Part shown: positions 11,403 to 48,292 of the stretch, piece after piece
Layout of the letters: every line of letters starts with the position of its first letter
Numbering within the stretch: the stretch's first letter is position 1
NCBI GenBank assembly: GCA_016758965.1
Contig: JAEPRB010000191.1
Coordinates: 1 to 64,000, forward strand
Length of the DNA stretch: 64,000 nucleotides
Source: Circinella minor
Taxonomy: Eukaryota > Mucoromycota > Mucoromycetes > Mucorales > Lichtheimiaceae
Direction: 5' to 3'
Notes under the pieces: generated by a model
Database searches by the model: none
What the model was told of the DNA's origin: nothing
Seen by the model: the letters and a program-made list of their open reading frames with translations, nothing else
Program-made: the position numbers and the translations under genes

Positions 11403-12521
11403 CTAGATATATAATGTGGTTAATGTAACAATACTAATTATAGAATCTTCTAAATTTACTAAATTTTCAGTAAATTCAATTAAAGAGTTAGTAGCCCAAG
11501 AATTACCATTAAAACTTGGTTCAGTAATATTATAAGGTGTTGAAGTAGTAGAAATAGACACAGAATCGATAAGACTAAAATCTGTCCTCATCATTGGTCT
11601 TCTTAAATTAAGGAAACCATTAGCATTAATTCGGAAACCATTAGGATATTGAGGAGTATTAAATAATCTCCTAACGAAATTATTAGAATTATTTTGTTCT
11701 GAGTTATTCTCTGTAATTACAGACTCATTCTCTGTAATTACTGGGTCATTCTCTGTAATTACTGAGTCATTTTCCTCATCTTCTGAATCAATATTAAAGT
11801 AAAATTCAGGATTATTTTCATGATTATCCTCTAATAAGGATTCAAAACCAGAATCATTTGGAATATTCTGATTTTCTGGTTCTGGTAAAGATAATGGGTC
11901 AATAAGGTATTCAATTGTATCCATAAGAAATCCATTAAATGAATTAAATATATAATTAAAAATATTTCTCCTAGTAATTTCAGGGGTATTACCTGTTAAA
12001 TCAAATAACCCTTCATTATAATTATTATCAATACTAAATTCTTCAAGATTAATATTAAATAAACTTAATAAATTCTCAAGTAATCCATAAAATCTTATTT
12101 CTGGTGATAAATCATTATCTAATGTATTAGAAGTTATTGATCTAAAGAATTCATTTATAAGTACAAATGGTCTATTAGCAATTGTATTAATATAATTATA
12201 AGCATTATATAATTTATAACAAAGGTATCCACCTGCAAGTACTGTACCTGATAATAAAGTTAAATTAATACAATAAATTCAATCAATACTAGTAAAATAT
12301 TGGAATACATTTAAAGAGCTATTAATAGTATTATGAACTTGAGGATCAGAGATAGGAATTTCACTAGATGGAATATAATTTTCTATTGTAAAAGGACTAA
12401 GATCTAGAGTAAAATAATTATAGAAATTGTTCTTTTTAATATCTAGAGTAAAATAGTTATAGAAAATGTTATCCTCATTTTCTATTCTATTGTTTAATAA
12501 ATAAATTAATAAAATAAACAT
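11403..12521 (-). CDS. Unknown membrane-associated protein with one in-frame TGA (372 codons)
   Basis: From ATG 12521 the frame runs 80 codons to TGA (12279-12281), then stays open to TAG at 11403. Reading TGA as Trp gives TSIDWIYCINLTLL followed by a membrane helix (LLSGTVLAGGYLC). An N-terminal hydrophobic segment (MFILLIYLL) and an acidic tail with a triple repeat (DSVITEN / DPVITEN / ESVITEN) are visible. The adjacent frame at 13844-14371 matches its N-terminal third, including SPxxxE and TSIDW. I do not recognise a family. An alternative is two separate 80- and 173-codon frames, but long openness between them argues against that. Confidence 0.55.
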
Positions 12522-12642
12522 ATTTAAAGAAAAAAATTAGTCAAGAAGATACTAATATACTTATATAATAAACAATTATCCTATTGAATAAGGGGATTTA
12601 ATAGAGGGAGAAGGGTAGATATTTTTAAAATATTATATTAAA

Positions 12643-13518
12643 TTAAGATTTAAATCTCTCTAAAATACTAAATAATCTAATAATTAAGTATAATGATCCA
12701 TTTAAATAAATAAAGGTTGAAAATCCCCAGAATAATGTATATACTTGAGCTGATTTTTTGATCAAATTAATAAATTTGATAATATATTTATTTTCAAATT
12801 TATCAATATTGTTATTATTTAGACTTAAATATAAACTAAAAAGAATAAAACTAATAATTGCTAAAAATAGTACAATTTTAGTGCAAGTTAAAACCACTAG
12901 AACATTATCTAGTAGTTCTTCATTCTCTAATGGAGAACTGGGTTTAAAATTATTAATATCTGAATCTGTACTAGTTTCATTTGAATAATTTTTTGAATCA
13001 GGGATTCTTCTAGAAGTTCGATAAGTAACCTCATCTTTACTTGTTTTTAAAGTGTGTTCTCGATCTTCAATTAGATTTAGATATTTAGATCCAAGATAGA
13101 TACCTCCTAAACCTCCCATAGTAATTACTCCTGAAACAGTTTTAATAGAAGCTGGAGAATTTTTAATAGCGCCTACAGTAAATTTACCAATAAGACTTAA
13201 TGCTGTAACATCTCCTACAGATATTAAATCAACTGTTAGTGCTTGATTAAAAAATGGTGATCTAATCTCAAATTTATATGGATTAGGTTTAGATTCTTCT
13301 GATCCATCTCCAGCATACACACTAGTAAGATCTGAAATTAAATCATTTGGAATTAAACTAAATAAATAAAGCCAGAAAGCTCCACTAATTAATAGTGATA
13401 GAATGAATAATTGATATGGAATAGGATTAACAAATTTACTTAAAATTAATTTAATTAATTCCATAGTATAAGTGGCAATAAGCCAACCAAAAATCAGTGA
13501 AATGATAATTGTTAACAT
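12643..13518 (-). CDS. Unknown multi-pass membrane protein (291 aa)
   Basis: N-terminal helices (about 1-27 and 33-58) precede a VYAGDGSEESKPNPY motif, a Gly-rich hydrophobic segment (GVITMGGLGGIYLGS), and a polar linker. The C-terminal helices (about 210-235 and 265-290) are separated by a Lys-rich loop. It is clearly paralogous to the 292-aa ORF in cox1 intron 9: shared NPIPxQL, IPxDLI, EESKxNPY and AIKxSPxSIK. It is transcribed opposite to nad5 and cox1 and lies in an island with a primase remnant. Function unknown. Confidence 0.75.
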   Translation of the reverse strand: MLTIIISLIFGWLIATYTMELIKLILSKFVNPIPYQLFILSLLISGAFWLYLFSLIPNDLISDLTSVYAGDGSEESKPNPYKFEIRSPFFNQALTVDLISVGDVTALSLIGKFTVGAIKNSPASIKTVSGVITMGGLGGIYLGSKYLNLIEDREHTLKTSKDEVTYRTSRRIPDSKNYSNETSTDSDINNFKPSSPLENEELLDNVLVVLTCTKIVLFLAIISFILFSLYLSLNNNNIDKFENKYIIKFINLIKKSAQVYTLFWGFSTFIYLNGSLYLIIRLFSILERFKS

Positions 13519-13678
13519 AATTAAATTTTTTATAGCTTTTAAATAAAGCGTAAGGTACCCCCAATTTTAGTATATAAAAGAAATACCTAATATATCAACT
13601 TTCCGTTAATATACAATAAAAATTATTAATTTCCCTTTAATTCAAAGGATTTTGAACAATTTAGAGAATTAATAGTAT

Positions 13679-13756
13679 AGCCGTTAAAAGGAATCAAACC
13701 TCTATTTGTAAATTAACAGTTTACAATTTACCGTTCTACCATTGAACTATAACAGC
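13679..13756 (-). tRNA. trnN(guu): tRNA-Asn (GUU) with extended anticodon region
   Basis: The acceptor GCTGTTA/TAACGGC and D arm GTTC/GAAC are sound. GTAAA CTGTTAA TTTAC gives anticodon GTT. About 8 nt (GGTAAATT) separate the D stem from the anticodon stem where one is usual, making a 78-nt gene. The extra bases could pair with the 3' side instead, extending or sliding the stem. Confidence 0.82.
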
Positions 13757-13843
13757 TTTAATTAAATTATAAGTAATGATATACTCTTTCTTATAAAAAA
13801 GATTATTTAATTAGAGAGTGTTATTTGTTAAAAAAGATAAGGT

Positions 13844-14371
13844 TTAATGTGATTTAAAGGATTTTCTTAAACTTAAATCATATGTTTCAATTCCTGAATC
13901 AATCACTGTATTTAAAGTTTGAAAAGGAGTTTTTACTACAGAATAAATTCTTGTAACAGTAGTATAAGTATTATAAATTACTATACCAGTAATAAATAAA
14001 CTACCTGAGATATATACAATTTTAAGATAATAACTTCATTTAGCTTCATAAAAAGGATTAATAACAAAATTCCAATCAATACTAGTAAATTTTTCTCGGA
14101 TTTTATTATTCACTTCTGTTATATCAGGTGAAGAAGGTAATTCAATCCTTGGTAATTGAATATTAGGAGTTTTAATATTAAAGTATTCCATAGATAAAGG
14201 ACTAAAATCAGCAAGAAATGATTTGTATAAGATAGATTTAGTAATATCCTCAGCAAAAAAGAAATTCGAAAAATTATTTTCGAATTCTGTTAAAAATTAA
14301 TTAAGACTATTATCAGAATTTATAATAGGATTATTATTCCTATTTAATAAATATAAATAAATAAATACCAT
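13844..14371 (-). pseudogene. Paralogue of the 372-codon island ORF, with a stop after 24 codons
   Basis: From ATG 14371 the frame starts MVFIYLYLLNRNN, has a TAA at 14297-14299, then stays open to TAA at 13844. It shares SPLSMEYF, the TSIDW motif and a following membrane helix with the protein encoded at 11403-12521. A TGA at 14036-14038 sits in frame (EAKWSYY if Trp). Its ATG lies 3 nt beyond the stop of the primase remnant, so the two may have formed an operon in a plasmid or viral ancestor. Probably inactive. Confidence 0.6.
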
Positions 14372-14373
14372 GT

Positions 14374-15238
14374 TTAATAATTTTTTAAGCCGAACTGATA
14401 CCCTAATAGTGTTATTTTTTTAAGTCGAATATTAGAAATTGCAGGACTTCTCCCGATTCTAGTTTCTTCATGTTTAAAATCTTTAAATGATTCTAAGATC
14501 TTAAATAAGTTTTTAAGAAATTTAGTATGCTCGTAAATCTCAAAATTATGAAATCTGCTATATTCAATATAATTACCATATACTGTTTTATTAGAAATAG
14601 TATCTTTCTTACCTAATATAGTATTAAAATCTTTAACTCTTTCAATATTAGTATTTAATAACTCTTTTAATTGTTGTAGTAAAGAATTACTAAATACATT
14701 ATATTTTAATGTATCGTATCCATACTCTCTACAGAATAAAAGATAATTTGGATATAAAATTATTTTTTAGATCTGAATTCTTTTTACCAACATTTACATT
14801 ATTACCATATTCATAAGAAATAAATGATTTAATCCAATCTACTAAAGGATTAATTTCATTTAATACATTTTCACTAATTAATTTATTAGTATTAACAGCA
14901 TTATTTAAAAGATTTTGATTTTTATCTGAATTAGATAAAGCCCAATTTACTAAACCAGGTAAAGATCTAACTAAAGAACCTGATAATTCATTACTAACTA
15001 GATTATAGTTAAATAAATTTCTATCTATTTTATTTGGTACTGTTTTCATATTAATATAAATGATTCGTCGTTGTAAACCTGTAGATGAATCTTTTGATGA
15101 TCATAATAAATTACTTGTTAAGATAACTAATGATTCAGGTTGTAGATCAAATGAATCTTTATATTTTCTTTCAGCATTCATTACATCTCCTGAAATTAAT
15201 AATATTAATTTAGAGGGATCCCCTGAAAAATATTGTAC
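14374..15238 (-). pseudogene. Truncated superfamily 3 primase-helicase (P4/D5-like C-terminal part)
   Basis: Minus-strand frame 15238-14729 encodes ISGDVMNAERKYKDSF, LVILTSN, a TGA-containing LLWSSKD, GLQRRIIYINM and LPGLVNWALS. These match the order of conserved blocks in the phage/plasmid primase C-terminal domain (SGD-x-ERKxK, xxxSN, GxxRRxxxxxF, LPGxLNWAL). After TAG at 14729 the frame continues one step shifted with REYGYDTLKYNVFSNS to TAA at 14374. The Walker A region and everything upstream are missing; the remnant stops at the hairpin at 15246. It is a relic of a replicating element and not a host gene. Confidence 0.8.
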
Positions 15239-15245
15239 ATCAGAA

Positions 15246-15283
15246 AATAATACTCTCTCGTGGTAGTATCATAAGTAAACAGT
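15246..15283 (+). promoter_or_regulatory. CTCTCGT-loop hairpin before cox1
   Basis: ATACT and AGTAT flank a CTCTCGTGG loop region. An inverted near-copy lies at 36376-36396, upstream of the duplicated cox1 5' end. It marks the right boundary of the island that starts after the similar hairpin at 11268. Confidence 0.5.
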
Positions 15284-15366
15284 AGATCTATTTACTATCA
15301 AAATTAAATTATTTATTAAGGTTTATATAAGTAATAATAATAAAAAGGATTTTAACAACTTCTAAT

Positions 15367-31305
<15,939 letters not shown>

Positions 31306-31654: not shown

Positions 31655-32515
31655 ATGAAATTTTTAAAAATTAAATTAAATGATAACCTTTGGTTATTTA
31701 ATAAATCTTTTAGTCCTTTATATTATTCTACTAGTAATTCTAATATTACGGAGGATTTAAATAAATCTTCAAATAATACAGAAAATGCTATTAGTACTAC
31801 GGATGGAACTTCTAATCCATCCGTTGATGTAAATGTACACACTGATGGATTAACTGTATTAGGTGAAGGATTAAAAGTTATTGGTCACGCTATTGAAAAT
31901 AACGCTCCAGCCATTACAGCTGCTGCAGCAGCTGGAGGTGGAACAGCTATAATTTTAAAAACTCTTCCTCCTAAAGAAAGAGCTGCAGCTATTTTAGGTG
32001 CCGGAGCTATTTCAAGTGGAACTGTTTTAGCTTCTCAAGCTATTAAAGAAGCATCTAAACATTTAGAAAAATCTTCAGTACCTGATAGAACAGACAACAA
32101 TTCTCCAGATAATAGTTTTATTAATTCTCCTTATGAAAATTCTAATGAATTTATTAATTTAATTAACAAAGAACCCTTCTTTGTTAATTCTCCTAATGAA
32201 GAATTAGAATATTTAACACATAAATTAGAATTAATCCCAAAATTAGAATCATTGACAGTTGGTGTAATGATTATCAATTTAGGAGTTTTATTATTAATGA
32301 TTTTTGTTTCTTTAAATTTTATTATTAAATCATTTAGATTAGAAACTCGGGAATTTGTAACGAGTAGACCCTTATTACTTAAATTAGTTTCTTTATTTTT
32401 AAAAAGTAGAGAATTAACATCTTTATTTATGTTAGTTTTTATTAATTTTGGGTTATGTTCTATGTTTTATGGATTATCATATTTATTACACTTCCTAAAA
32501 TTAATAATTATTTAA
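31655..32515 (+). CDS. Unknown membrane protein between direct repeats (286 aa)
   Basis: A possible N-terminal presequence-like region, Ser/Asn/Thr-rich, is followed by an Ala/Gly-rich hydrophobic stretch (APAITAAAAAGGGTAIIL and AAAILGAGAISSGTVLA). An acidic linker and two C-terminal helices around FRLETREFVTSRPLLLKLVSLFLKS come next. The loop matches LEEKDWVKSRPILLKL at 44073 and [17 protein letters not shown] at 35041. The ORF plus the trailing repeat looks like an inserted cassette just behind cox1. Function unknown. Confidence 0.7.
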   Translation: MKFLKIKLNDNLWLFNKSFSPLYYSTSNSNITEDLNKSSNNTENAISTTDGTSNPSVDVNVHTDGLTVLGEGLKVIGHAIENNAPAITAAAAAGGGTAIILKTLPPKERAAAILGAGAISSGTVLASQAIKEASKHLEKSSVPDRTDNNSPDNSFINSPYENSNEFINLINKEPFFVNSPNEELEYLTHKLELIPKLESLTVGVMIINLGVLLLMIFVSLNFIIKSFRLETREFVTSRPLLLKLVSLFLKSRELTSLFMLVFINFGLCSMFYGLSYLLHFLKLIII

Positions 32516-32919: not shown

Positions 32920-33655
32920 GACTATCCCATTAAGTTATCTATTATTATTTTTTAGTAATAATTTTATTAATATATTATTATATAGATTTTATTCTTAAAT
33001 TTATTTTTAATTTCTTAACTAAATTCAATTTTAATCACCCTCTTCCAGTGGAATAAAAACTTTTAATTATTATTATTATTATTTATTCATTTTTAAATGC
33101 TTTACTATTAATTATTTTACAAGAATTTCTTTATATAGCTTTATATAAATTTATAAATATTTTTATTAAATAAATTTTTAAAGAGATTCTTAAAAATTTA
33201 TAAAAGAATAATAATTCCTCAACTTCTAGTTCATCAAATATTCAAGACTCTGATTCAAATTAATCAAATTTAATAAATAATTTTAATGTATCAAAATCTA
33301 GTTTTATTGATATTGATTCAATCTTATCCATAGTTTCTGAATCTAGATTTTTATCATTTAGTATTTGTATTTTCTTATTTAGTTTTGTAATTGTATCAGC
33401 TAATTTAGGATTAATTTTTAATTATTATTTTGATAAATTTATAAATTAATACATTGATAAAGTACCAAAATGGTTATTACTTTATATTAAAATTAATAAA
33501 ACATTTAATAATTATAGTAATAAATATAATATTTGTATGATTTTAGTTAGCCCCCGGGACGGGACTTACCCGGGTGGCAAGCCCCCCCAGGCTAGTCCAT
33601 TAATGATTATGTTATTGAGTATTTACCTAAAATTTAGAGAAATTGCTTAAATTTA
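32920..33655 (+). pseudogene. Decayed membrane-protein ORF of the DKxPKW subfamily
   Basis: The translation is broken by TAA codons. The 3' part reads FLSFSICIFLFSFVIVSANLG, then YIDKVPKWLLLYIKINK and, after a GC cluster at 33551-33592, MIMLLSIYLKF. These match the two C-terminal helices and the DKxPKW loop of the ORFs at 18408 and 45533. An atp9 tail fragment follows about 25 nt later. Confidence 0.62.
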
Positions 33656-35040: not shown

Positions 35041-36279
35041 TTAATGAAATTTCCAGAAAATACCCCACATATTATAACAAAGATATAAAACAAAAATTAA
35101 TTGTACTAATACTAAAAATAAACTAAATAATTGATTTAAAGATCTTAATTTATTAATTAAAAGTACAAATTTGTAAAGTAAAGGTCGTTTAATTACAAAT
35201 TCTTTTTCTTCAAGTTTTATATTTGAAACTAAAATACTTCCGATTAGCCAAATTACAGACAAAATAATTGATAATAGAATAAATACGATAGGCAACATTA
35301 ATACCATAGTAAGATCTCCATCATTAGCTACAAATTGAGAAAATAAATTATCTAAACCATTAGCAAGATCGTCAATTAAATTATAAATAAAATTTATAAT
35401 TTTATCAAAAATATTGTTATCATCTTCATTTGCAGAATTAATTTTAAAATTACCATCTGCAGGAGGAGTAGTAGGTTGAGGAGGTAATTCTTCTCCATTT
35501 TGTCTATTTATACTTTCGTTTACATATACTAATCCGCCTAATCCAATAGCTCCTCCAAGACCTAAAGTTGTAACTTGTACTTTAGCAGTCGGTGGTAAAT
35601 TCTTTGCAGCAGCTACTGTGCCTGCAGCTACTGCTCCGAATACAGTAGCTGCTTCTTGAGCAGGTGTTGGACCGTTACTTGTATTAGAATTAGATGGATA
35701 ATTATGATTGTAAATATTAGTAATATTTGTAGTACCAGTTGAAGAAGAATCAGTTTCAGTAGTATCAGTTGAAGGAGAAGAATCGATAGGAGCAGTTAGA
35801 GAAATTATAAATTTATAACTTATATTAATAAATAATAATAAACTTAATCCTAATAAACTACTTAAGATAATAGTTAAATTATCCTTTAAGAATTCAATAA
35901 ATTCCATAACATTAGTATTTAGAGATTCTGATGAAATAATTGGTACAAATAATACAGATGCAAAACTATAACCATATAAATTATTCACACAATTTTGTTT
36001 TCTTACGATACTTTGAATAATTGCACTAATTATAAATAATATACCGAATCCACCAATTAAACCTGGCATAACCATTGAGAAAATCATAACAAAAGCGTGA
36101 GCTGTTACGATTACATTAAATAATTGATGATCTCCTTGTAAATATTGAGCACCAGGTCCAGCTAATTCAAGTCGAATTAACATAGAAAAGGCAGTACCAA
36201 TCATCCCCGCAAAAATAGAGAAGATAATATATAGAGTACCAATATCCTTAGCATTTGTTGAGAACAGCCATCTAACCAT
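35041..36279 (-). CDS. Chimeric ORF: cox1 exons 1-2 fused to an unknown membrane protein (412 aa)
   Basis: The first 79 codons repeat cox1 exons 1 and 2 joined without the group II intron. The only difference I see is at the joint (TCA here, TTC in the spliced gene). At GGATTCGGT, exactly the cox1 intron 2 site, the frame passes into foreign sequence: [14 protein letters not shown], a membrane helix, a Ser/Thr-rich linker, an Ala/Gly-rich segment and two C-terminal helices around [19 protein letters not shown]. The ORF at 47123-48292 is a relative (ISSxSLNxxVMxFIxFL, DDNN). The cox1-like leader upstream (to about 36396) is also copied. Confidence 0.78.
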
Positions 36280-36375
36280 ATTAGAAGTTGTTAAAATCCC
36301 TTTTTATTATTATTACTTATATAAATAGGTAATAATAATATTTAGTATTAACAATAGATATATTAATAATTTATT

Positions 36376-36396
36376 TATGATACTACCACGAGAAGG
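36376..36396 (-). promoter_or_regulatory. TTCTCGT-loop hairpin upstream of the cox1 duplicate
   Basis: The minus strand reads ATACC, TTCTCGT, GGTAGTAT: an inverted copy of the hairpin at 15246 upstream of cox1. Confidence 0.5.
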
Positions 36397-37022
36397 TATT
36401 AATCAAAGTATCATGGAGAAAAGAGATTATTTATAATTAGTAATTAATTGATCCTATTCATATTATTAAAAGGTTTTATAAATATCTCATAAATAAAAGG
36501 CTTAATATTAAGAGCCGGGGGAGTTCCCTCCCTGGCTCGGCCAGGCGCCATCAGGCGCCGGGTTTATTCTTTAAGACATTCCTAAATAAAAATAATAAAG
36601 ATTAAGTATAAAAATTACCTACAAATAATTACCTACAAATAATTAATCACAGATAATATTTTTATTAAAATGTGATTAAAATTAATTACATGTAAGAAAG
36701 GTTATAAATGTGATTATTTTAATCATAATAGTAAATTAATTTTATAACTATTTTCCATCTACAGAATTGTATGGTAGGGTATTAAAAAGAGATAAACTAT
36801 TTCAATCATCTATAAATGATTGACATTTAAATAATTTAAATGAAGGATAGAAATATATATATATATACAATATGAAACACTTAATTTTATTATCAAAACA
36901 AAATAAATAATATTATACCTATTATTAATAATAGGTATAATATTAAACTATCAAATAATTTTCTTGACACTCCCACTAAAACCTTTAGATTTAATTTAGA
37001 ATAAATTAATATTAATTATAAG

Positions 37023-37162: not shown

Positions 37163-38560
37163 GGTTAATTTGTAATAAATAAAATATTTAAATAATACAC
37201 CGTAATAATAATTCCAATTAGATTAATCCCAATTAAGAATAACATTAACAATCTATAGAATTTACTAGCCCAGGTGGCAAGCCCTCCGAGTAAGTCTTCA
37301 CCCCGGGGGCTAGTTTTAACAAACTTGTTTTGTTAAAATAGGTTTAAAAAACTAGCCCAGGGGGAGTACCTCCCCCTGGGTCTGTTTTAATATATTCTAT
37401 ATTAAAACTAGTTTTAATCTTTAGATTAAAACAGACCCCCGGGTGCAAGCACCCGGGGGGCTAGCCCCGCGCGCAGAGCGCGCGGGTCAGACCAGCGGGG
37501 TCGCGTAGCGGCCCCGCGGGCTCTCCCCCGGCCCCAATGGGCCGGGGGTCTGCCCGTTTTAAATAAAACGGGCTAGATTTTTCAAAATATGATAAAATTT
37601 TAACTAATCTTGGATGTTTTTTTAATAAATAATTTATCTTTTAAGTTAAATTTTTTCTAATAAATTAATTGTTAAAGATAAATATGGATATAACATTCCA
37701 ATACTAAAAAAGATCATTACAATACTTAAACCTTGTTGGATATTTTCAAAATCAATTCTTAATTCAAAAGGTGAATTAATACAAAATTTATAAGATTCCA
37801 ATTATTGAGAGTCTCTAGGAAATTCAGAGGATTCTGTATTACTAAAGAGAACAGATGATGTATTATTAGTACTAGATCCTGGTAATAGATTAGGAATATT
37901 TGAAGAAGATCTAACTACTGTTGAAGTTCTATTAATATTATTAATTCTATTAATATATTGACTTAATAATGTAAACCCACCTACAGCTCTAAATACATTA
38001 AAAAAGGCACCTACTCTAGCTTCAAGAGGAAATACATTTAAGATTTTAGAAGTAGCAATTCCAACACCTGTAACTGTAACTCCTGGGATTAAATATCTAA
38101 TCCCTTCTTTAGCAACTTCACTAGTTTTAATCTTTAGATTAAAACCGACCCCCGGCCCAATGGGCCGGGGGAGAGCCCCGGGGGCCAGTTCCCCGTGGAT
38201 GAGTCCCCCTGGGGACTAGCCGTTTTAATAGAATCTTGATTTTCAAATTTATGATTTACAGTTATTCCTTTATCTTGAAGTTCTTTTACAATTTTTTAAT
38301 AAATTCAGAATTAGAATTATTCGATTCAGCACATTTAACAATTTGGAAAGGCATGAATACTGAATATTCAAAGTAATTATTAAAAGCCCGGGGCCCGGGC
38401 CGAATGGCCCGGGCCCCGGCAAAGAGGCCTTCGGCCCCCCTCAGCTAAAATAATACAATACATTGTAATTAATAATAGCATAATTCTTTTTAAAGGAATA
38501 CTTGTAATAGCTAAATCTAATTTTTTAATTAATTTTATCCTAATCTAAATATTTAATATC
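37163..38560 (-). pseudogene. Decayed membrane-protein cassette ORF split by GC clusters
   Basis: From about 38560 the frames give an N-terminal helix (MLLLITMYCIILAE), then after a GC cluster (38385-38450) a piece with IVKCAESNNSNSEF, a break, and after another GC cluster (38130-38225) GIRYLIPGVTVTGVG with VGAFFNVFRAVGGF. A stop follows, then IVMIFFSIGMLYPYLS and NLLEKI. Beyond a 310-bp composite GC cluster a last helix remains: MLFLIGINLIGIIITVYYL, stop at 37163. The order of segments matches the intact cassette ORFs. Confidence 0.6.
37264..37575. repeat. Composite GC-cluster array II
   Basis: Same modules as 452-787 (GGGGGAG hairpin, CCCGGGTGCAAGCACCCGGG, GCGCGCAGAGCGCGC, GGCCCCAATGGGCC, CCCGTTTT/AAAACGGG). 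Order and orientation are partly changed and long runs are identical. Interrupts a decayed ORF. Confidence 0.85.
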
Positions 38561-39762: not shown

Positions 39763-39833
39763 TGCGGGTTGATGTAATGGAAGCATGTTAGACTCATGAT
39801 CTAGAAGTGGTAGTTCAAATCTATCATCCGCAC
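39763..39833 (+). tRNA. trnM(cau): tRNA-Met (CAU), probably the initiator
   Basis: Acceptor TGCGGGT/ATCCGCA; D arm GATG/CATG-like; anticodon stem TTAGA/TCTAG with loop CTCATGA (anticodon CAT). The TGCGGG start and weak 1-72 pair resemble fungal mitochondrial initiator tRNAs. Confidence 0.9.
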
Positions 39834-40264: not shown

Positions 40265-40605
40265 AGATTATTCTTAGGAACTTGAATAGTTAACCTAATT
40301 AATTTTAATTTTGGAGGAAAGTCCGGGGCTTATAATTTTAAATTAGATAGTTTATACAATATAGACTAAAGTTTAAATGAATAAACCATAATGAAATTAT
40401 AACATCTGGTGTGAACCAGGGTAATAATCAGAAAATATGCTATTTTTATTTATAATTAGATAATCATACTTAAATATTTAATAGCTGAGTAATATAACCT
40501 ATGGGAAGCCTTTTATTTACTAAATTTTTAATTCTTAATATTAAGTATATATAGATATATTAACTGTATTACAGAATCCGGCTTATCTAGTTCTAAGATA
40601 TTATT
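40265..40605 (+). ncRNA. rnpB: Mitochondrial RNase P RNA
   Basis: The two universally conserved halves of helix P4 are present: GAGGAAAGTCCGGGGCT at 40313-40329 and ACAGAATCCGGCTTAT at 40571-40586. A P1 stem can form between TCTTAGGAAC (about 40272) and GTTCTAAGA (about 40590). The spacing of about 260 nt between the P4 strands fits a reduced bacterial-type RNA. The product is the catalytic RNA that removes 5' leaders from mitochondrial tRNAs. Ends are approximate. Confidence 0.88.
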
Positions 40606-40612
40606 TAATTCT

Positions 40613-40775: not shown

Positions 40776-41103
40776 ATTTATCTCAGTTTTTTAATTAATT
40801 AAAAAGTGTTAAATTAAAGATAATTTGATCCTTATGGACAAGTTATCATTTCTTTATATCTAAAAGGTGTTAATAATTTATATCAACTTAGCCTTTTCGT
40901 CGGCTTACCCTCCGGGCTAGATTTATTATAAAGCTTAGAATAAATTTAATAATTTATTTTAAGCTGAGGGAGGCTAGCCCCCTCTTTATCTTAAATCTTA
41001 TAATATATATTATTAAATATTATAAGATTATTTAATATTTTAAAAAGATTTAACTCTTAATTTAATACAGTATTATAAAAAATATTATTTCTATGCAAAT
41101 TAC

Positions 41104-41283
41104 CTAATTCATTCATTTGCAATTCCTTCATCAGGTTTAAAATTAATGCTATTCCAGATAGATTAAATCAAACATCTGTTTTAGTTAAAAAAAGAAGGAG
41201 TATATTATGGAAAATGTTTAGAAATTTGTGATGTATATTATATATTAATGCCAATTATTGTAGAAGTTATTTATATAAAATAA
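41104..41283 (+). pseudogene. Fragment of the cox2 3' end, frameshifted
   Basis: Reads LIHSFAIPSSGLKINAIPDR and LNQTSVLVKK, then after a one-base shift EGVYYGKCLEICDVYYILMP and IIVEV with TAA at 41283. This matches the COX2 copper-A domain (AIPSxGxKxDAxPGRLNQ, GVxYGQCSExCGxxHxxMPI). The Cys-x-Glu-x-Cys and Met ligands remain but His is replaced. No upstream cox2 sequence is present, so it is a displaced or duplicated 3' terminus. Confidence 0.78.
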
Positions 41284-41350
41284 TATCTAGTTTAGTTAAA
41301 CAAGCAAAATTGTTAATCTAATAATATTAATAATCAAATAACCTCCTTCC

Positions 41351-41461
41351 TTCAATTATTAATTCTTTTAATTCAATTATGAATTCTTTTAACTCAATTA
41401 TGAATTCTTTTAACTCAATTATGAATTCCTTTAACTCAATTATGAATCCCTTTAACTCAAT
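41351..41461 (+). repeat. Tandem repeat, 21-nt unit, about five copies
   Basis: Successive AACTCAATTATGAATTCTTTT units with small variations (TTCC, TCCC at the end). Short tandem array of unknown role. Confidence 0.9.
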
Positions 41462-41555
41462 TTAAAAATTAAATATAATTATAGTTATTCACCACTTCTT
41501 CACATAATTAAATTTAAAATAATAACTAATATCTAAAGTTTTTAATATTGAGTAT

Positions 41556-41606
41556 TTATCTAGAAGATTTGCAATCTATTGCATTACCAATTATGCTAGT
41601 TAGTCA
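41556..41606 (-). pseudogene. Truncated tRNA-Cys-like fragment
   Basis: The minus strand reads TGACTAACTAGCATAATTGG and TAATGC (acceptor and D-arm-like), then TAGA TTGCAAA TCT with anticodon GCA. No T arm follows. It resembles the 5' half of trnC at 37023. Confidence 0.4.
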
Positions 41607-41797
41607 AATAATTTTAATCATATGATTAATCAACTGGCTTACTTATAATAATAAAATATTTAATATAATTTAATATAATAGATAATCTATTTTTTATTAA
41701 TAAAAATTAGTATAATACTTACTTTTGTTCACTTACAAATTATTACCCATCCCTATCCTTTAATACCGTATAACTATATTATATATTAATGATTTAA

Positions 41798-41881
41798 TGA
41801 ATAGAGTGGGACTCGAACCCACAGGGACAGTTACATCCATAGTTTAGCAAACTACTTCCTTACCGATTCGGTCATCTATTC
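41798..41881 (-). tRNA. trnS(gcu): tRNA-Ser (GCU)
   Basis: Acceptor GAATAGA/TCTATTC; anticodon loop TTGCTAA (anticodon GCT); long variable arm GGATGTAACTGTCC; T arm GTGGG/CCCAC. Confidence 0.94.
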
Positions 41882-42004
41882 TACTAGAAGCACAGGTCCT
41901 GTTTAAACAGGACCTTGAGATTTTATTAATTTAATTAAAGGCCTTTGGATAGAAGTTTACCTTACGGACCAAATATAATTAAATTATTTATTTAATAATT
42001 AGTT

Positions 42005-42074
42005 TAGGGAATAGTAGAATCGAACTACTACCAGTTATGTGTAAGATAACCACTCTACCATTAAGTTAATCCCC
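42005..42074 (-). tRNA. trnV(uac): tRNA-Val (UAC)
   Basis: Acceptor GGGGATT/ATTCCCT with one mismatch; anticodon stem GTTAT/ATAAC with loop CTTACAC (anticodon TAC); T loop TTCGATT. Confidence 0.92.
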
Positions 42075-42146
42075 TATTTCTAAATTAAATGTATTATCTA
42101 AAATAATATATTTAGAATATAATGTTACTTATAATAGTTATATGAG

Positions 42147-42220
42147 GGTGAAAACCCGGGATCGAACCGGGAACCGTTAGTACCACAAACTAATGTTCTA
42201 CCAATTAAACTATTTCCACC
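42147..42220 (-). tRNA. trnH(gug): tRNA-His (GUG)
   Basis: Extra 5' G paired with the discriminator C, as expected for His; acceptor GTGGAAA/TTTTCAC; anticodon stem TTAGT/ACTAA with loop TTGTGGT (anticodon GTG); T arm CCCGG/CCGGG. Confidence 0.95.
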
Positions 42221-42474
42221 GTTTTAAATTTATTTTACTTTTAATTAAATTATAAGATTATATTTATAATATCTATAAAAGATATTTATTAAAAATCTCC
42301 GGGCCGTAACTTGGAGACTGCGAACCCTGCGCCCGCTGGATAATAAAAAATAATTTACTTTTAAAATTAATTCTATCTTAATTAATTTTTTTAATAAAAT
42401 ACTTATTAAAGACAAATTAATTATATTTAACTTAAGAAATATCTTAAGAAAAAATTAAACTAATATAATTTATA

Positions 42475-42549
42475 TAGCGTTCCAGAGGAGTTGAACCTCT
42501 ACCACCAAGAGCCGAAATCCTGTACTCTACCAATTAAGCTAGAAACGCT
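42475..42549 (-). tRNA. trnR(ucg): tRNA-Arg (UCG)
   Basis: Acceptor AGCGTTT/GAACGCT; anticodon stem CAGGA/TCTTG with loop TTTCGGC (anticodon TCG); T arm AGAGG/CCTCT. Confidence 0.93.
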
Positions 42550-42799
42550 CCGAAAGGACATTTATGAGATCACGAACAATTTTTCGCGTCCTAAAAACAC
42601 ATATTTTATAAATGTATCTAAAAATTTAATTATAACTAAAGCCTTGAAGGATATTTTGCTTTCAGAGTCCTTTGGGACTAAAGTTTATAAAAAACTTATA
42701 CTATTTACTTATAAACAAATTAATTTTACTAATGAAAAACTTGTTCTTATATTTTAAGAATTTTTATCTATTTAAATAATTGGTCCTTAGGACGATATT

Positions 42800-42862
42800 C
42801 GCCCCCAAGTTTAAAAATTTCTTTTTAAATAAAATCTTTATTTTGGGCCGGCTCGCCGGCCC
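42800..42862. repeat. GC-capped AT hairpin element
   Basis: CCCCCAAGTTTAAAAATT with TTTTTAAATAAA, closed by GGGCCGGCTCGCCGGCCC. Same family as 4053-4118. The remainder of 42550-43043 holds no recognised gene. Confidence 0.6.
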
Positions 42863-43043
42863 AAGGTTTCTATAATTATATATAAAATAAGTTAAAGAAT
42901 AATCCGACTCATCAGGCTTTGGAATCCTATCTGACCTAATAATCTAAAGATAAATATAAAAATTAAAATTTATTTAAAAAATAAGATGAGGAGGCTACTT
43001 TTTATAATAACCTCATTTATAATTTATGCATATTAACTATATT

Positions 43044-43073
43044 GTGTAATAGTAATAAGAATGCCATCATTAA
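43044..43073 (-). pseudogene. atp9 3'-end fragment (tail E, most decayed)
   Basis: Minus strand encodes LMMAFLLL, then diverges (LHN instead of YAA and stop). Last of the tails in the array. Confidence 0.6.
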
Positions 43074-43231
43074 TAAAATATTAAATAAATTAATATTAAA
43101 TAATTTAATATTAATTTAAGTAATTCCTCTGAATTTCATATAAATATAAGTTAACATAATTAATACCTGAGAAAGTAATATATATTACTACTATTTACTA
43201 AATTAAAATAATTATTAATAATTGGTAATAA

Positions 43232-43470
43232 TTATTTAGGAACTTTATCCACATGTTTGTCTCCATATAATTTAGTATAATAGTTAATAATTAAACCTAC
43301 TAGAGCTGATAAAGTAGCAAAACTTGCTAACATAAATGCATAAAAAGAATAATTAATAGATTCATTTGTATGTAAAGATTCTAAATCAAATAAAGAATAT
43401 TTTTAATTTAATTCATTGAATTAAATGTATCATTGTCTAATACTTTATTTAAATCTTGTTCATTAGTCAT
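43232..43470 (-). pseudogene. Truncated DKxPKW-subfamily membrane ORF
   Basis: Starts MTNEQDLNKVL at 43470, meets TAA, and continues in another frame with SFYAFMLASFATLSALVGLI and YGDKHVDKVPK, then stop. This equals the penultimate helix and loop of the ORF at 45533 (YGDKLLDKLPK); the last helix is missing. Confidence 0.62.
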
Positions 43471-43690
43471 AATAAATAAATTAATTAATTAGTTAAGGGA
43501 AATCTTATTTAGGATCAGGAAATATGATCTTAAATATTAAACAATTTATAAAAAAATTTTTGTATTTTTTATAATAGATAATATTCTAGTTAAAGGTAAT
43601 ATGATAGGAGGGGAGGGTGGGGATTACTTTTTAAGGTAACCCCCGAAGTTTAGATTATAGATGACTTTTATAACTAATATACACATTTAA

Positions 43691-43750
43691 TTACGCTGCG
43701 TATAGTAATAGAAATACCATCATTAATGTGAATAGACCAAATAAAGATGA
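43691..43750 (-). pseudogene. atp9 3'-end fragment (tail D)
   Basis: Encodes SSLFGLFTLMMVFLLLYAA and stop, matching the intact ATP9 C-terminus. The 45-nt block after the stop is shared with tails B and C, as is the GGTAACCCCC sequence further down. Confidence 0.8.
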
Positions 43751-43751
43751 C

Positions 43752-44064
43752 TAGCCCAGGACTTACCCAGGGGTATGCCAATCCTCGACTAGCCCGTTTT
43801 AAATAAATTTAAAACGGGCAGACCCCCGGCCCATTGGGGCCGGGGGAGAGCCCGCGGGGCCGCTACGCGACCCCGCTGGTCTGACCCGCGCGCTCTGCGC
43901 GCGGGGCTAGCCCAGGGGGAGGTACTCCCCCTGGGTCTGTTTTAATATATTCTATATTAAAACTAGTTTTAACAAACTTGTTTTGTTAAAATAGGTTTAA
44001 AAAACTAGCCCAGGGGGAGGTACTCCCCCTGGGTCTGTTTTAATCTATTCTATATTAAAACTAG
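43752..44064. repeat. Composite GC-cluster array III
   Basis: The modules of arrays I and II, mostly inverted, with the GGGGGAGGTACTCCCCC hairpin present twice. It separates a cassette ORF from its atp9 tail. Confidence 0.85.
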
Positions 44065-44072
44065 AAAAATTA

Positions 44073-44963
44073 TTAATTTGGAAATTGAAGTTTAATATTA
44101 ATTAAACCAAATAACAAACCTAATAAACTTAAATAAGTTAATAAATATAGTGCAAATAACACTAATCTACTAGAATGTTTACCTAAAGTAGCTAATTTTA
44201 ATAGAATAGGTCTAGATTTAACCCAATCTTTTTCTTCTAATCTTAATTCTCTAGATAAAATTCCTAGTCCAAAAGCTGTTAATACATATAAACCAGTAGA
44301 AGCTAAAATAATCATTCCAGTTAAAGTTTGATCAAAAGCATCAGTAGTTTCAATTACACTATTAATAAAGAAATCCCAATGTTCAGATTCATACATACTA
44401 TTAGCAACAGTATTAGAATTAGTTGATTCTTGAGATTGAGTAGTTGATAGAACTTTTAATGGTTCTGTCGAACTTTTAGACACATTAGAAGAATTAATGT
44501 TTGAACTATTTGATGCTGAAAATAATTTATTATCTCCAATTTTTGGCATAAAAGTTTGTTGTAATCCATAAGTTACACCAAAAGTTCCTAAAAAGACAGC
44601 TACTTTACCAAAAGGATGGGTAATATAAGATGCAGCTTGAGAACCAGCATATACAGAAATTGAACCATTAAGACCATTAGCAATTTTATTAAAAATAGTA
44701 GAAGTACTATTATCCATAGAAATAGTATGATTATGAGTAATACCATTATTAGCTAAATTTCCAAATTCATTTAAAGTATTATTTAATTGGTTAGTATCAG
44801 AAGTATTAGCAGAAGTATTAGAAGAATCATCTCCTCCTTCACAATATGCTGTAGGAATAATATCAGTAAATGTATTTAAATCAATATAAAATACAGATAA
44901 ATAGAATAATGTTAACATTAATGTTACAATAATAATTCTTAAATTATTTTTAAATAATTTCAT
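44073..44963 (-). CDS. Unknown membrane protein (296 aa), EEKDW subfamily
   Basis: N-terminal helix (about 9-27) and the motif IPTAYCEGGDDSS; Ser/Asn/Thr-rich segment; GKVAVFLGTFGVTYGLQQ; VANSMYESEHWDFFINSVIETT; two C-terminal helices around LRLEEKDWVKSRPILLKLATL. Homologous along most of its length to the ORF fused to cox1 exon 4. ATG start, no TGA. Followed by a GC array and then an atp9 tail. Function unknown. Confidence 0.75.
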   Translation of the reverse strand: MKLFKNNLRIIIVTLMLTLFYLSVFYIDLNTFTDIIPTAYCEGGDDSSNTSANTSDTNQLNNTLNEFGNLANNGITHNHTISMDNSTSTIFNKIANGLNGSISVYAGSQAASYITHPFGKVAVFLGTFGVTYGLQQTFMPKIGDNKLFSASNSSNINSSNVSKSSTEPLKVLSTTQSQESTNSNTVANSMYESEHWDFFINSVIETTDAFDQTLTGMIILASTGLYVLTAFGLGILSRELRLEEKDWVKSRPILLKLATLGKHSSRLVLFALYLLTYLSLLGLLFGLINIKLQFPN

Positions 44964-45393
44964 AGTATAAAATTTGAGTGCTTTTTTATCAATCGGTTTC
45001 TCTAGTTCTCATATACTTAAAAGTAACTGTAAAATTACCTTAAGAGGGGGCACGAAATATTCTTACCTTAAGTGAAAGGACAAACAATTTCTGCTTGAGT
45101 GAGAGAACGGACACATATGTGTCTATCCGGACTAATGAGATCCAGACAATTTAATTCCAAAATATTTGAAATTAAATTAGAAATCCTTACTTATATAAAA
45201 TTTATAAAAAAAGGCATAATTAAATTAATCTTAAAATTTCCTACCCTTTTCTAAAAAAAATTTAAAGTTTTAACAGATAATATTCTAGTTAAAGGTAATA
45301 TGATGGGGGGGGGGGGAGGGTGGGGATTACTTTTTAAGGTAACCCCCGAAGTTTAGATTATAGATGACTTTTATAACTAATATACACATTTAA

Positions 45394-45430
45394 TTACGCT
45401 GCGTATAGTAATAGGAATACCATCATTAAT
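45394..45430 (-). pseudogene. atp9 3'-end fragment (tail C)
   Basis: Encodes VVLMMVFLLLYAA and stop, about 100 nt after the 215-aa ORF. The downstream block to about 45310 matches those behind tails B and D. Confidence 0.8.
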
Positions 45431-45532
45431 ACAACAATGGAAAAAAGATTAAATTAATAATAAAGTGTATAAAATACTATAAATACTAGACTTAATATTA
45501 AAGAATATATAATAACAAAGACATTAGATTGG

Positions 45533-46180
45533 CTATGTTAAGTAAATATATAAACTTAACGTTAAGCCTACAATTTGACAAACTAAAATAATACTAAAAT
45601 CAAATAAAATTGGAAATAATAAATATTTTTGATAAAATCTATATAAAGGGTGAAAAATTTTAGGTAATTTATCCAATAATTTATCACCATACATATAAGT
45701 TAAATAAGTAAAAGTCATACTGATAGTTAAAAAAATAGTAACTGAAGTAAAACAAATAAATGTTAAACTCATATTCTCTACTAATAATTTAGATGTTTCT
45801 AAAGAAACATCATTAATATCTAAGGAAATATCTGTTTCTAAAGGAGAATTAATATTAATATTTTGATCTGTAAAATTATTAGCAGTTTCTAAACTTTTAG
45901 CTTTATCAAAAGTAGATTTAAATTGATCATTATAATCAGAGACTTTCTCTGTATTATAATATTTAACTTTTTCAAACTCTAGTTGATCTCTTTGAATATC
46001 TAATTTTTTATTTTCTAATGCAACATTATCATTATGAACTTGTTTTAAATGTTCTAATTTTTTATCTTCAAGTTCTCTTTTTAGCTCAACTTCTTCAGTA
46101 TGAGCTTGAGCAGTTTTATTTGCGGAATAAATTCCTACAGCAGTAACTCCAATTCCAAAAATTTTTGTTAAATCTTTCAT
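45533..46180 (-). CDS. Unknown membrane protein with coiled coil (215 aa), DKxPKW subfamily
   Basis: Short hydrophobic start (IFGIGVTAVGIYSA), a long charged helix (about 24-75, LKRELEDKKLEHLKQ type, likely coiled coil), a linker, and two C-terminal helices (about 140-163 and 190-214) with YGDKLLDKLPKIFHPLYRFY between them. It is the compact homologue of the 266-aa ORF in the group II intron. ATG start, no TGA. Function unknown. Confidence 0.75.
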   Translation of the reverse strand: MKDLTKIFGIGVTAVGIYSANKTAQAHTEEVELKRELEDKKLEHLKQVHNDNVALENKKLDIQRDQLEFEKVKYYNTEKVSDYNDQFKSTFDKAKSLETANNFTDQNININSPLETDISLDINDVSLETSKLLVENMSLTFICFTSVTIFLTISMTFTYLTYMYGDKLLDKLPKIFHPLYRFYQKYLLFPILFDFSIILVCQIVGLTLSLYIYLT

Positions 46181-46343
46181 AATCTATATTTATATTCCTA
46201 TCTTACATTTCTTATTATTTATTTAACAATAAAAATGTCAATCATATATATATGGTTGAAATAGTAGTTTATCTCTTTTTAATACCCTATCTTAATTTTT
46301 AATGAATTAATTATTTAATGAAAAATTAGCCATAGTCAATTCT

Positions 46344-46440
46344 AGTTTTAATATAGAATATATTAAAACCGACCCCGGCCCAATGGGCCGGGGGAAAGTT
46401 CCCCGGGGGCACTCACCCACGGGGGGCAGGTATTTACATT
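46344..46440. repeat. GC cluster with AT arms
   Basis: TTTTAATATAGAATATATTAAAA followed by GGCCCAATGGGCC and CCCCGGGGG; same modules as array I. Within 46181-46870 there are also the 52-bp repeat (46471-46524) and a CAGGTTGTGGCC repeat (46560-46655); no gene. Confidence 0.7.
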
Positions 46441-46470
46441 GATAATAAGCCTAGGCTAGTTTTAAAATAA

Positions 46471-46524
46471 GATGGGAAATAAGTTAAATATTAATTGCGA
46501 ATAATTCAGCATTTAACCTTTACT
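46471..46524 (+). repeat. 52-bp dispersed repeat, copy 2
   Basis: Matches 4541-4600 upstream of nad4L. Confidence 0.6.
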
Positions 46525-46869
46525 TTTAAAAAAGTTTTATAGTATAATAAAAACTAATCCAGTGGACGCAGGGCCCGCCAGCCTTCAGGTTGTGGCCCAG
46601 AGGCCCGGGGCCGGGCAAAGCCCGGGCCAAGCTTTACCCGGTCCTGGCCAAGCTAAATTTAATTTATCTCGGCTTTTTTATTTTTAATTATTTTAGAAAG
46701 AGATAGAGAGGACAATAAACTCGTTTTATTCATTATTTTTATATTGGAGAGGACGAGTTTTATTATTAACTCCTTTAATTAATAAGGAAAGAGGTGGGAG
46801 GTTACTTTTTAAGGTAAACCCTAAATTTATGAATTATAGATAACTTCTATAATTAATATACACATTTAA

Positions 46870-46913
46870 TTACGCTGCGTATAGTAATAGGAATACCATC
46901 ATTAAAGCAAACA
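46870..46913 (-). pseudogene. atp9 3'-end fragment (tail B)
   Basis: Encodes MFALMMVFLLLYAA and stop; downstream block shared with tails C and D. Confidence 0.8.
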
Positions 46914-47122
46914 TACTCTTAAAACCTTTAATTCTAAAATAATTTATATAGTTTGATAGTCTCGATAAATTATGAAAGTGTAAACTGAAATGTCCAACAT
47001 TGAGAATTAACGGGTTAAGCTATAATTATAGGTAGACCCGGGGCCCCTGGCCCCGGGTTCAGGGGGCCAGGGGCTAATAATAATGACTAAGGATCTTAAA
47101 TATTAATATAAGTAACACAAAA

Positions 47123-48292
47123 ATGATATATAATGTATTACTTAATAAATTAAACCAGATGTCTTTCCTGGTTCTTTTATTGATCATGTCAACAATCTTA
47201 TTAAACACTATTCCTGCTATCTCATCAAAATCTTTAAATATTGATGTTATGAGATTTATTGATTTTTTGAATAATAATTTATTAATTATTTTTAGTGGTT
47301 CTCTTGTATTAGGTTTATTTATTTTATACATGAGAAAAAGAGTTATTTATAATACTAATTCATTATCTAATAATAATTTATCACCTGATTTAACTGTTAA
47401 TAATCCTAATCATTACAACAATAATAACGAACCTCGAACAGATGGACGAGATAGAATTGATCGAGCTTTTAATTATGCTGTAGGAACTTTTGGTATTATT
47501 GCTACTATTACCGGTATTTTAGAAGGAGGTATTCCATCTATTGGAATGTTAATCCTTTCTTTAGGATTGGGAGCAAGTGGTGGAATGTTAGGCTATCATC
47601 TAAATTCAGATAGAGAAGAAAGTCAAATTCTTATTAATAGATCAGAATCTCTTCCAGCGGATATTAATTTTAATCCACATAGACAAGAACAATTATTAAG
47701 ATTATCATTAGATAACTCTTCAATAGAAAATCTAGGCCCAAGGGGGCCTGATCTCGAGCGGCTGAGCCCCGAGGGGCTAGGTATTTCTTCTCCAACTTCA
47801 TATTCAACAAATAATTTAATTACGTACCCGTCAAGAGAAGAAGATATATCTTCATTTTCAACCACTTCTGCTCCTGCAGAAAATAATAAAGATTATTCTA
47901 AAGATTTCAATAATGTACCAAGTACAAATGAGGATGATAATAATTTATTAAACCAAATTATCAAATTTTTAGAATCAATTAAAGATAACGGGTTTTCTAA
48001 TGTAAAAGAATTTTTATTTAATTTATTTCCTTCTGACGGGGATCCCACAATGTATTACCTATTTAATGTGTCTTTAATTTTAGTTTGTATTTTAATTTTA
48101 ATTTTAATTGTATTATTTACTCTATTAGTAAAAATGTTAAAATTAGAATACCAAGAGTTTGTAAAAAATAGATCATTACTTTATAAAATTGTACTTGGTT
48201 ATTCTAAAATTAAAGAGATTAAAATTATTATTTTATTATTAGGTGTAATTTTATTATTATTAAATGTTTTTATAGGATGTTATTTTATGTGA
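47123..48292 (+). CDS. Unknown membrane protein (389 aa), relative of the cox1-fused 412-aa ORF
   Basis: N-terminal hydrophobic region; ISSKSLNIDVMRFIDFLNNN followed by a membrane helix matches the start of the foreign part of the ORF at 35041-36279. An Asn-rich linker, a Gly-rich hydrophobic segment (GGIPSIGMLILSLGLGASGG), an in-frame GC cluster (47733-47785, GPRGPDLERLSPEGLG), EDDNNLLNQIIKFLE, and C-terminal helices around LEYQEFVKNRSLLYKIVLGY follow. Encoded opposite to the neighbouring cassette ORFs. ATG start, no TGA. Function unknown. Confidence 0.73.
   Translation: MIYNVLLNKLNQMSFLVLLLIMSTILLNTIPAISSKSLNIDVMRFIDFLNNNLLIIFSGSLVLGLFILYMRKRVIYNTNSLSNNNLSPDLTVNNPNHYNNNNEPRTDGRDRIDRAFNYAVGTFGIIATITGILEGGIPSIGMLILSLGLGASGGMLGYHLNSDREESQILINRSESLPADINFNPHRQEQLLRLSLDNSSIENLGPRGPDLERLSPEGLGISSPTSYSTNNLITYPSREEDISSFSTTSAPAENNKDYSKDFNNVPSTNEDDNNLLNQIIKFLESIKDNGFSNVKEFLFNLFPSDGDPTMYYLFNVSLILVCILILILIVLFTLLVKMLKLEYQEFVKNRSLLYKIVLGYSKIKEIKIIILLLGVILLLLNVFIGCYFM

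Follow-up and report, generated by a model that had tools for sequence, protein, structure and literature searches.

Predicted membrane-protein ORFs in introns, gene-end insertions and spacers of a fungal mitochondrial genome: candidate passengers of mobile elements

RESULTS

Ten long ORFs in a mitochondrial contig

The stretch studied here, called the window throughout, consists of the first 64,000 nucleotides (bases 1-64000) of contig JAEPRB010000191.1 (C191; 75,713 bp) in the Circinella minor assembly GCA_016758965.1 (46.6 Mb), and our subject is a group of ten long open reading frames (ORFs) in it whose products resemble membrane proteins. C191 is mitochondrial DNA (mtDNA) of fungal type: it carries rRNAs, group I and group II introns, 17 tRNAs found by ARAGORN plus one found by Rfam, and the genes nad4L, nad5, cox1, atp9, nad1, nad6, nad2 and nad3. 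On a second contig of 28.6 kb, C379, are atp6, cox2, cob and a portion of cox3, none of which has a counterpart on C191 except for a degenerate cox2 end. Because the two gene sets are complementary, the contigs probably belong to one mitogenome of at least 104 kb, and a search of both for nad4 gave only nad2- and nad5-like matches.

The original prediction had listed the ten ORFs as a mobile family of mitochondrial membrane proteins with a common layout. All ten are open under genetic code 4 (215-397 amino acids (aa), not counting the cox1 parts of J and F), and as predicted they occupy introns, gene ends and spacers on both strands. With three further ORFs on C379 (N1, N2 and N3) they make up the 13 ORFs to which our counts refer (Table 1). 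Chance frames were ruled out: in 100 shuffles of the region no stop-free run exceeded 179 codons, and the shortest ORF has 215. Third-position GC was 0.04-0.17 in the members (0.29 in N1) and 0.11-0.22 in four host exons.

Table 1. Positions of the ORFs and associated features (window coordinates unless C379 is given)
Feature	Position	Strand	Description
B	12643..13518	-	291 aa; core, BH subfamily; nad5-cox1 spacer beside primase-helicase relic; 35-36% identity to H
D5/P4-type primase-helicase relic (not a member)	14374..15322	-	two overlapping frames; PHROG 864 8e-15, DUF5906 1.3e-4, Pox_D5 1.7e-4
Reverse transcriptase/maturase ORF, cox1 intron 1	15570..18123	+	PF00078 5e-31, PF01348 1e-32 on 15367-18123
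Domain V, cox1 intron 1	18138..18171	+	Rfam RF00029, 53.1 bits
Predicted domain VI, 5' strand	18172..18190	+	pairs with 19229-19254 across E; fold -13.8 kcal/mol
E	18408..19208	+	266 aa; EL subfamily; cox1 group II intron 1, predicted domain VI loop
Predicted domain VI, 3' strand	19229..19254	+	ends in AC at 3' splice site
Exon upstream of F	20881-20976	+	in frame with F
F	20977..22023	+	348 aa after exon; core, KF subfamily; 5' part of cox1 intron at ENGAG|TGW
LAGLIDADG ORF	24051..25139	+	cox1 intron at LPVLAG|; PF00961 2e-32; in frame with exon
G	25332..26333	+	333 aa; stop-to-stop frame 25311-26333; cox1 intron at LPVLAG|
H	29963..30841	+	292 aa; core, BH subfamily; cox1 intron at IGVN|LTFF; relatives P0016, P0018, P0019
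I	31655..32515	+	286 aa; core; downstream of cox1 end; KF-I 97.5%, JMN3-I 98.6%
Decayed EL-type copy	33180..33647	+	tblastn with N2 2e-18, composition correction off
J	35041..36042	-	333 aa after cox1 part; core, JM subfamily; in frame behind cox1 5' copy
cox1 5' copy fused to J	36043..36303	-	92.9% identical over 324 nt to original cox1 5' region
Decayed EL-type copy	43097..43402	-	tblastn with N2 9e-35; DNA ~78% identical to intact N2
K	44073..44963	-	296 aa; core, KF subfamily; spacer
L	45533..46180	-	215 aa; EL subfamily, pairs with E; spacer
M	47123..48316	+	397 aa; core, JM subfamily; spacer; near-identical relative P0017
N1	C379 6351-7280		B/H type; intact; atp6 intron
N2	C379 9637-10278		E/L type; intact; between cox2 C-terminal copies
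N3	C379 23068-24027		J/M type; intact; at cob end

A common protein layout without a mobility domain

The most constant part of the predicted layout, a pair of C-terminal hydrophobic segments flanking a net-basic loop, was present in 12 of the 13 ORFs, the last segment of B being below threshold; the same hydropathy scan found no such pair in two other frames of the region, A and C. Two other parts of the layout held less widely: a hydrophobic segment for the N-terminal helix rose above threshold in 8 of the 13 and stayed below it in the rest, and the YC-G-(D/E)E motif, judged by eye, is clear in three of ten (F, H and K) and altered in B. The ORFs most likely encode integral proteins of the inner mitochondrial membrane.

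Twelve of the 13 were scanned against Pfam (B, E, F, G, I and M at E<=1; H, J, K, L, N1 and N3 at E<=0.1; N2 was left out). No nuclease, maturase, transposase or reverse transcriptase (RT) domain was found in these twelve, nor any significant domain apart from the cox1 exon in F, and PHROG gave no significant match for G, K, H, I or L (best 0.028). An alignment of 44 G-type proteins has many strongly conserved columns, and none of its members contains a nuclease, maturase or significant Pfam domain. The structure model of G based on these 44 sequences (mean predicted local distance difference test 70.5), the only usable model, is all helical with three N-terminal helices, and fold searches with it returned generic helical hairpins and nothing specific. 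A tie to the Ala/Gly hairpin of ATP synthase subunit c would be conjecture.

Seven of the ten ORFs form one core family

An all-against-all BLASTP comparison with composition correction off gave the pairs B-H (1e-53), F-K (2e-50), J-M (5e-23), E-L (8e-15) and I-J (8e-14), and phmmer agreed; I linked to F, J and M. C-terminal profiles run against all frames of the contig recovered the same links, with one reversed control frame reaching E 0.0008 for the EL profile. Subfamily profiles, built from the available relatives after removal of host-gene parts, were then compared with one another and with 120 controls (reversed groups and host membrane proteins), of which five exceeded 10% and the best reached 60.2%. 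The KF profile matched JMN3 at 97.6% and BHN1 at 89.4%, while BHN1 matched I at 70.8% and JMN3 at 69.7%; the remaining core scores are in Table 1. Since these scores exceed the best control, K, F, J, M, I, B and H, seven of the ten window ORFs, belong by profile comparison to one core family together with N1 and N3, the BH link being the least strong. The possibility that the ORFs are unrelated to one another or are ordinary host genes was tested in this way and fails for the core family.

The claim of one family with a common layout is narrower for the remaining three ORFs. E, L and G share the layout, but their profiles stayed below the best control: ELN2 scored 37.8% with KF, 29.7% with BHN1, 9.0% with JMN3 and 0.6% with I, and G scored 52.7% with BHN1, 51.1% with JMN3, 28.4% with I, 0.4% with KF and 1.4% with ELN2. 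Their membership in the core family is therefore unproven. These scores are what would be expected if E, L and G were unrelated membrane proteins, alike in layout only, so that two or three families occupied one niche. We regard this as a serious possibility, though not the one we favour, because the matched stretches in KF-ELN2 and BHN1-G are the C-terminal module on both sides, as they would be in homologs, and because an NS(P/M)xE-type motif before the hairpin, seen by eye, is common to E, L, H and others.

Old paralogs and decayed copies

The family had been described as expanding, a term that the identities do not bear out. The closest pairs in the window are 35-38% identical (B-H and F-K), and for H and K outside proteins are closer: H is 61% identical to P0018 and 58% to P0019 as against 36% to B, and K is 52-53% identical to P0008 as against 35% to F, and only 31% to P0015. 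A tree of 17 proteins agrees on the near relatives of H and K, with seven of its 14 inner branches well supported and six weak. Recent expansion was ruled out by the identities and the tree; as the outside proteins are closer to H and K than the window paralogs are, these duplications predate the divergence from the sources concerned. Elsewhere, relatives of H, K and G mostly show 44-69% identity. Two proteins are much closer, P0016 (99% identical to H) and P0017 (94% to M), and probably come from near strains. The protein searches scored only candidates sharing most words with the query, about 8000 each, so relatives may have been missed.

The DNA of the N-terminal parts of N3 and J (C379 23115-23272, window 35817-35977) is 83% identical over 161 nt, although overall protein identity is about 41%, a contrast that may reflect recombination among members.

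Among three decayed copies proposed for the window, two were recovered as kin of the intact N2 (Table 1), but the third, at 37163, gave only E 0.012 to 0.29. A weak K-like relic lies at 37652-38080 (1e-5, composition correction off). These broken EL-type copies, with N2 intact on C379, indicate that members also get lost.

Members in self-splicing introns and a predicted domain VI lodging

By exon matches the cox1 gene of the window has nine introns, of which intron 1 holds E, intron 4 F, intron 6 G and intron 9 H; the fifth member-holding intron is that of atp6 on C379, with N1. Five of the 13 members thus lie in self-splicing introns, and B, I, J, K, L, M, N2 and N3 lie elsewhere. F fills the 5' part of its intron, and H is the only long ORF seen in its own.

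The first cox1 intron begins with GTGCG, and its RT and maturase ORF is in frame with exon 1. The next exon starts about 1,080 nt after domain V, and E, which lies in this interval, stops 46 nt before the 3' splice site. The sequences on either side of E can be paired into a predicted domain VI stem with a single bulged A at -7 of the splice site. The atp6 intron of C379, whose RT protein is 35% identical to that of the cox1 intron, has the same order of RT, domain V (6221-6254), N1 and a closing stem, where the A at -7, before AT, is predicted to lie within a small internal loop. Random partners paired equally well in 1.6% (cox1) and 2.6% (atp6) of 2000 trials each, and as the segments were picked by eye these figures flatter the model. 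E and N1 are thus predicted to sit in domain VI loops of two distantly related group II introns, behind the RT. The review PMC4424553 places the group II intron-encoded protein in domain IV and describes short insertions following domain VI. No earlier example of an ORF lodged in the loop of domain VI came to light, a single literature search having been aimed at this point.

G and three of its relatives share a cox1 site

G lies downstream of a LAGLIDADG ORF in the same intron, and its stop is 14 nt before the exon resumes. Of the 7989 candidates scored with seven G-type queries, 59 matched at E<=0.01; one of these 59 (P0001) is the window's own, so the sequence databases hold at least 58 other G-like proteins. 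Their labels include Pisolithus microcarpus, Taiwanofungus camphoratus, Cubamyces menziesii, Trametes maxima and Tricholoma terreum, and the three names that were looked up are those of Agaricomycetes from three orders; a match labelled Shewanella canadensis was taken as contamination. The view that the ORFs match no known mitochondrial family thus holds for Pfam but not for the sequence databases in the case of G. Neither G- nor K-type relatives were found in viral contigs; none of the G type was found in genome contigs and none of the K type in plasmids, each being the type scanned there.

Three of the 59 proteins (P0028, P0041 and P0042) consist of cox1 sequence up to LPVLAG or VPVIAG followed in frame by a G-like protein, and on comparison of the sequences this junction is the cox1 site of the window's G intron. 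In P0042 the cox1 part has decayed towards its end and may, like that of J, be a duplicated fragment.

Members at duplicated or replaced gene ends

The predicted link to duplicated host-gene ends was borne out by J in the window and N2 on C379. J follows a copy of the cox1 5' region that lacks the group II intron, exon 1 running directly into exon 2. N2 is flanked by two cox2 C-terminal pieces (9035-9094 and about 12247-12393); four frames near it were scanned and gave one NUMOD1 match, at 11402-11659 (0.0024, below its cutoff). Beyond IENTLMDL, a short tail takes the place of the cob end, and N3 begins within this tail in a different frame. In all, 3 of 13 members (N2 with cox2, N3 with cob and J with the cox1 5' end) stand beside a duplicated or replaced gene end. 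A degenerate copy of the cox2 C-terminus, 46% identical, is also present in the window at 41104-41307 (+).

Four of the 13 members share their intron or insertion with an RT (E and N1), a LAGLIDADG ORF (G) or the weak NUMOD1 match (N2), which suggests passenger status. The original prediction had argued for a mobility of the members' own and had speculated on a selfish membrane-protein element acting on mtDNA inheritance. A self-mobile element that biases inheritance would be in keeping with the number of copies, the decay of some of them and the unusual insertion sites, but the twelve scanned members lack mobility domains (target-site duplications were not searched for), the paralogs are old, and in at least three cases neighbours supply the mobility enzymes. 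We consider such an element highly improbable.

Absence from two related mitogenomes

The assembly contains two compact mitochondrial contigs, C279 (48.3 kb, with a 127-nt overlap between its ends) and C332 (36.2 kb), each with all 13 genes searched for, and by exon piece the proteins of C332 are 68-100%, mostly more than 80%, identical to those of C191/C379. A profile search at E<=0.01 found no family member in either contig, and tblastn at 1e-3 gave six matches, all on cox1 and all from the cox1-carrying P0028, P0041 or P0042. None of the five member-holding introns occurs in C279 or C332, whereas of the five other cox1 introns (2, 3, 5, 7 and 8) three are present in C279 and one in C332.

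These results bear on the idea that the ORFs are useful host accessory genes, for example for respiratory-complex assembly or as membrane translation helpers, inherited vertically and lying in introns and spacers by chance. The frames have stayed open, relatives of H, K and G persist elsewhere at the identities given above, and the G alignment has its many conserved columns, all as expected of such genes. However, two related mitogenomes with mostly more than 80% identical core proteins do without any member, and decayed copies exist, which makes this explanation unlikely.

As C279 and C332 are compact genomes distinct from C191/C379, the assembly mixes several mitochondrial genomes; in a single assembly we count at least three different ones of related fungi (C191/C379, C279 and C332).

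A primase-helicase relic near B

Another origin for the ORFs would be mitochondrial plasmids or a virus-like element, whose particle or transfer membrane proteins recombined into the mtDNA and were scattered. In the nad5-cox1 spacer, B lies on the minus strand together with the nearby D5/P4-type primase-helicase relic and the frames A and C, and a 21-residue match to the helicase frame (E about 0.001) lies at 36339-36437 (+), beside the cox1 copy of J. Consistent with such an origin, two Heterobasidion papers (PMC4201751, PMC10234125) link some plasmid-derived and unknown ORFs, most of them with transmembrane segments. Against it stand the lack of significant PHROG matches reported above, the lack of any viral structure like G (best E 0.18) and the fusion of G relatives to cox1 at one intron site, which points to an intron habitat. 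On balance we think a plasmid or viral origin unlikely. No relatives of the helicase piece were found in viral contigs, and a search of the assembly for DNA polymerase B (PF03175) gave no match, its controls being silent too.

The relic itself is cut short next to the cox1 5' region, and the helicase match near J looks as if the duplication had taken in both. A (11403-12521, -) and C (13844-14296, -) are related to each other (BLASTP 3e-11, composition correction off); A has no significant Pfam match and neither has a significant PHROG match.

DISCUSSION

Proposed passengers of mobile introns and gene-end insertions

Our preferred reading, to which we assign a probability of roughly 0.57, is that the members are membrane proteins without nuclease activity that ride as passengers on mobile introns and on insertions of the mORF type, moved by their neighbours or by recombination. 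The protein would consist of N-terminal helices in most members, often an Ala/Gly-rich middle, and a C-terminal pair of helices whose basic loop presumably faces the matrix. The genes would live within self-splicing introns, in a loop or a terminal part, and within insertions by which a host-gene end is duplicated or replaced. Spread would be the work of a neighbouring homing endonuclease, reverse transcriptase or recombination and not of the membrane protein itself. F, J and three G relatives are in frame with COX1 and may be expressed from the host gene, as a fusion translated from unspliced RNA, and other members would start at their own ATG. Because long frames and relatives survive in other fungi, the protein appears to be under selection, which implies that it does something at the membrane, either for the element or for the host.

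A number of observations weigh against the passenger reading. For the five members in spacers (I, B, K, L and M) no element boundary was found, and in the introns of F and H no homing enzyme was seen and Rfam detected no group I core. For E, L and G, kinship with the core is not supported beyond the level of reversed controls, and the common habit could thus have more than one origin. The domain VI pairing was predicted from segments chosen by eye, and a site is established for three of the 59 matches of the G search. Assigning C379 to the window's mitogenome is itself an inference, in an assembly that mixes several. Finally, no two strains differing by a member were seen.

Going beyond passenger status, mobile introns of fungal mitochondria might carry a dedicated second gene for an inner-membrane protein, expressed as a COX1 fusion or from intron RNA, which compensates for the burden of the intron or renders losing the intron harmful. 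We put this forward tentatively and as rather improbable. If true, it would define a class of non-nuclease cargo of self-splicing introns common to this fungus and basidiomycetes, with domain VI of group II introns as one lodging site. If the passenger reading itself holds, mobile introns are more than an intron plus a nuclease and carry membrane proteins as well, with a bearing on intron persistence, on effects on respiration and on the origin of new mitochondrial genes.

Comparison with known systems

Homing endonuclease ORFs of the LAGLIDADG and GIY-YIG types occupy the same introns as the members and can likewise be in frame with the upstream exon. Unlike them, the twelve members scanned lack a nuclease domain and have hydrophobic segments typical of membrane proteins. 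The mORFs of Glomus and other fungi (PMC3630166) couple duplication of a host-gene C-terminus to an endonuclease. The placement of N2 between two cox2 C-terminal copies, the replacement of the cob end by N3 and the position of J on a duplicated gene end recall these mORFs as so described, with the difference that mORFs encode an endonuclease whereas the intact ORF here encodes a membrane protein, and that J uses a 5' end. For group II introns, PMC4424553 describes 3' insertions ('domain VII'), which shift splicing by about 50-70 nt, or LAGLIDADG ORFs. The introns of E and N1 resemble those described in having added sequence close to the 3' end or an ORF other than an RT; what sets them apart is that, besides the RT, they carry an ORF of 0.8-0.9 kb within the predicted domain VI loop.

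Fungal mitogenomes often contain unknown transmembrane ORFs, which tend to be listed singly; here many such ORFs are grouped in one family. The ncORFs and uORFs of Heterobasidion (PMC4201751, PMC10234125) are likewise transmembrane and without assigned function, some being variable or decayed, and a 350-aa ORF of Lentinula with five helices is missing from some mtDNAs (PMC9744193); both sets may include members. Compared by description only, they differ from the present ORFs in that kinship and intron habitat are seen here. The intronic ORFs of Trametes (two and three; PMC7843977) could be the same thing as G, the likeness again being one of description; G relatives labelled Trametes maxima and Cubamyces menziesii were among our matches. 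No earlier description of the member family was found in the literature searched, most subscription journals being outside its coverage, and the placement beside RT and LAGLIDADG ORFs and at gene ends is a new finding. A fixed cox1 intron site for one type, together with introns shared with homing enzymes, gives such ORFs a habitat and a testable route of spread.

Further observations on the window and the assembly

Nuclear copies were considered for contigs C30, C155 and C337 (against the window) and C555 (against C279) and rejected: their end identities are each exactly 127 nt and then give way to other sequence, which we attribute to overlaps in an assembly graph with k=127 and not to insertions. 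Divergent cox1 pieces with gaps are found at C5:1278-8536 and about 11206, at the end of a 459,674-bp contig, for which a nuclear insertion, a chimera or a very large mitogenome are candidates.

Frame O of the window (48669-49034, +; 121 aa) has short matches to two frames of C279 (E 9e-6 and 2e-4); it is not a member and is perhaps a piece of a decayed or widespread element. A weak match to bacterial RNase P RNA at 40534-40601 (+; 19.8 bits, cutoff 100) marks a possible mitochondrial rnpB. GC-rich repeats at several places in the window (e.g. about 38150-38230 and 43600-43900) read as Gly/Pro/Ala-rich frames, and they resemble double-hairpin elements of fungal mtDNA.

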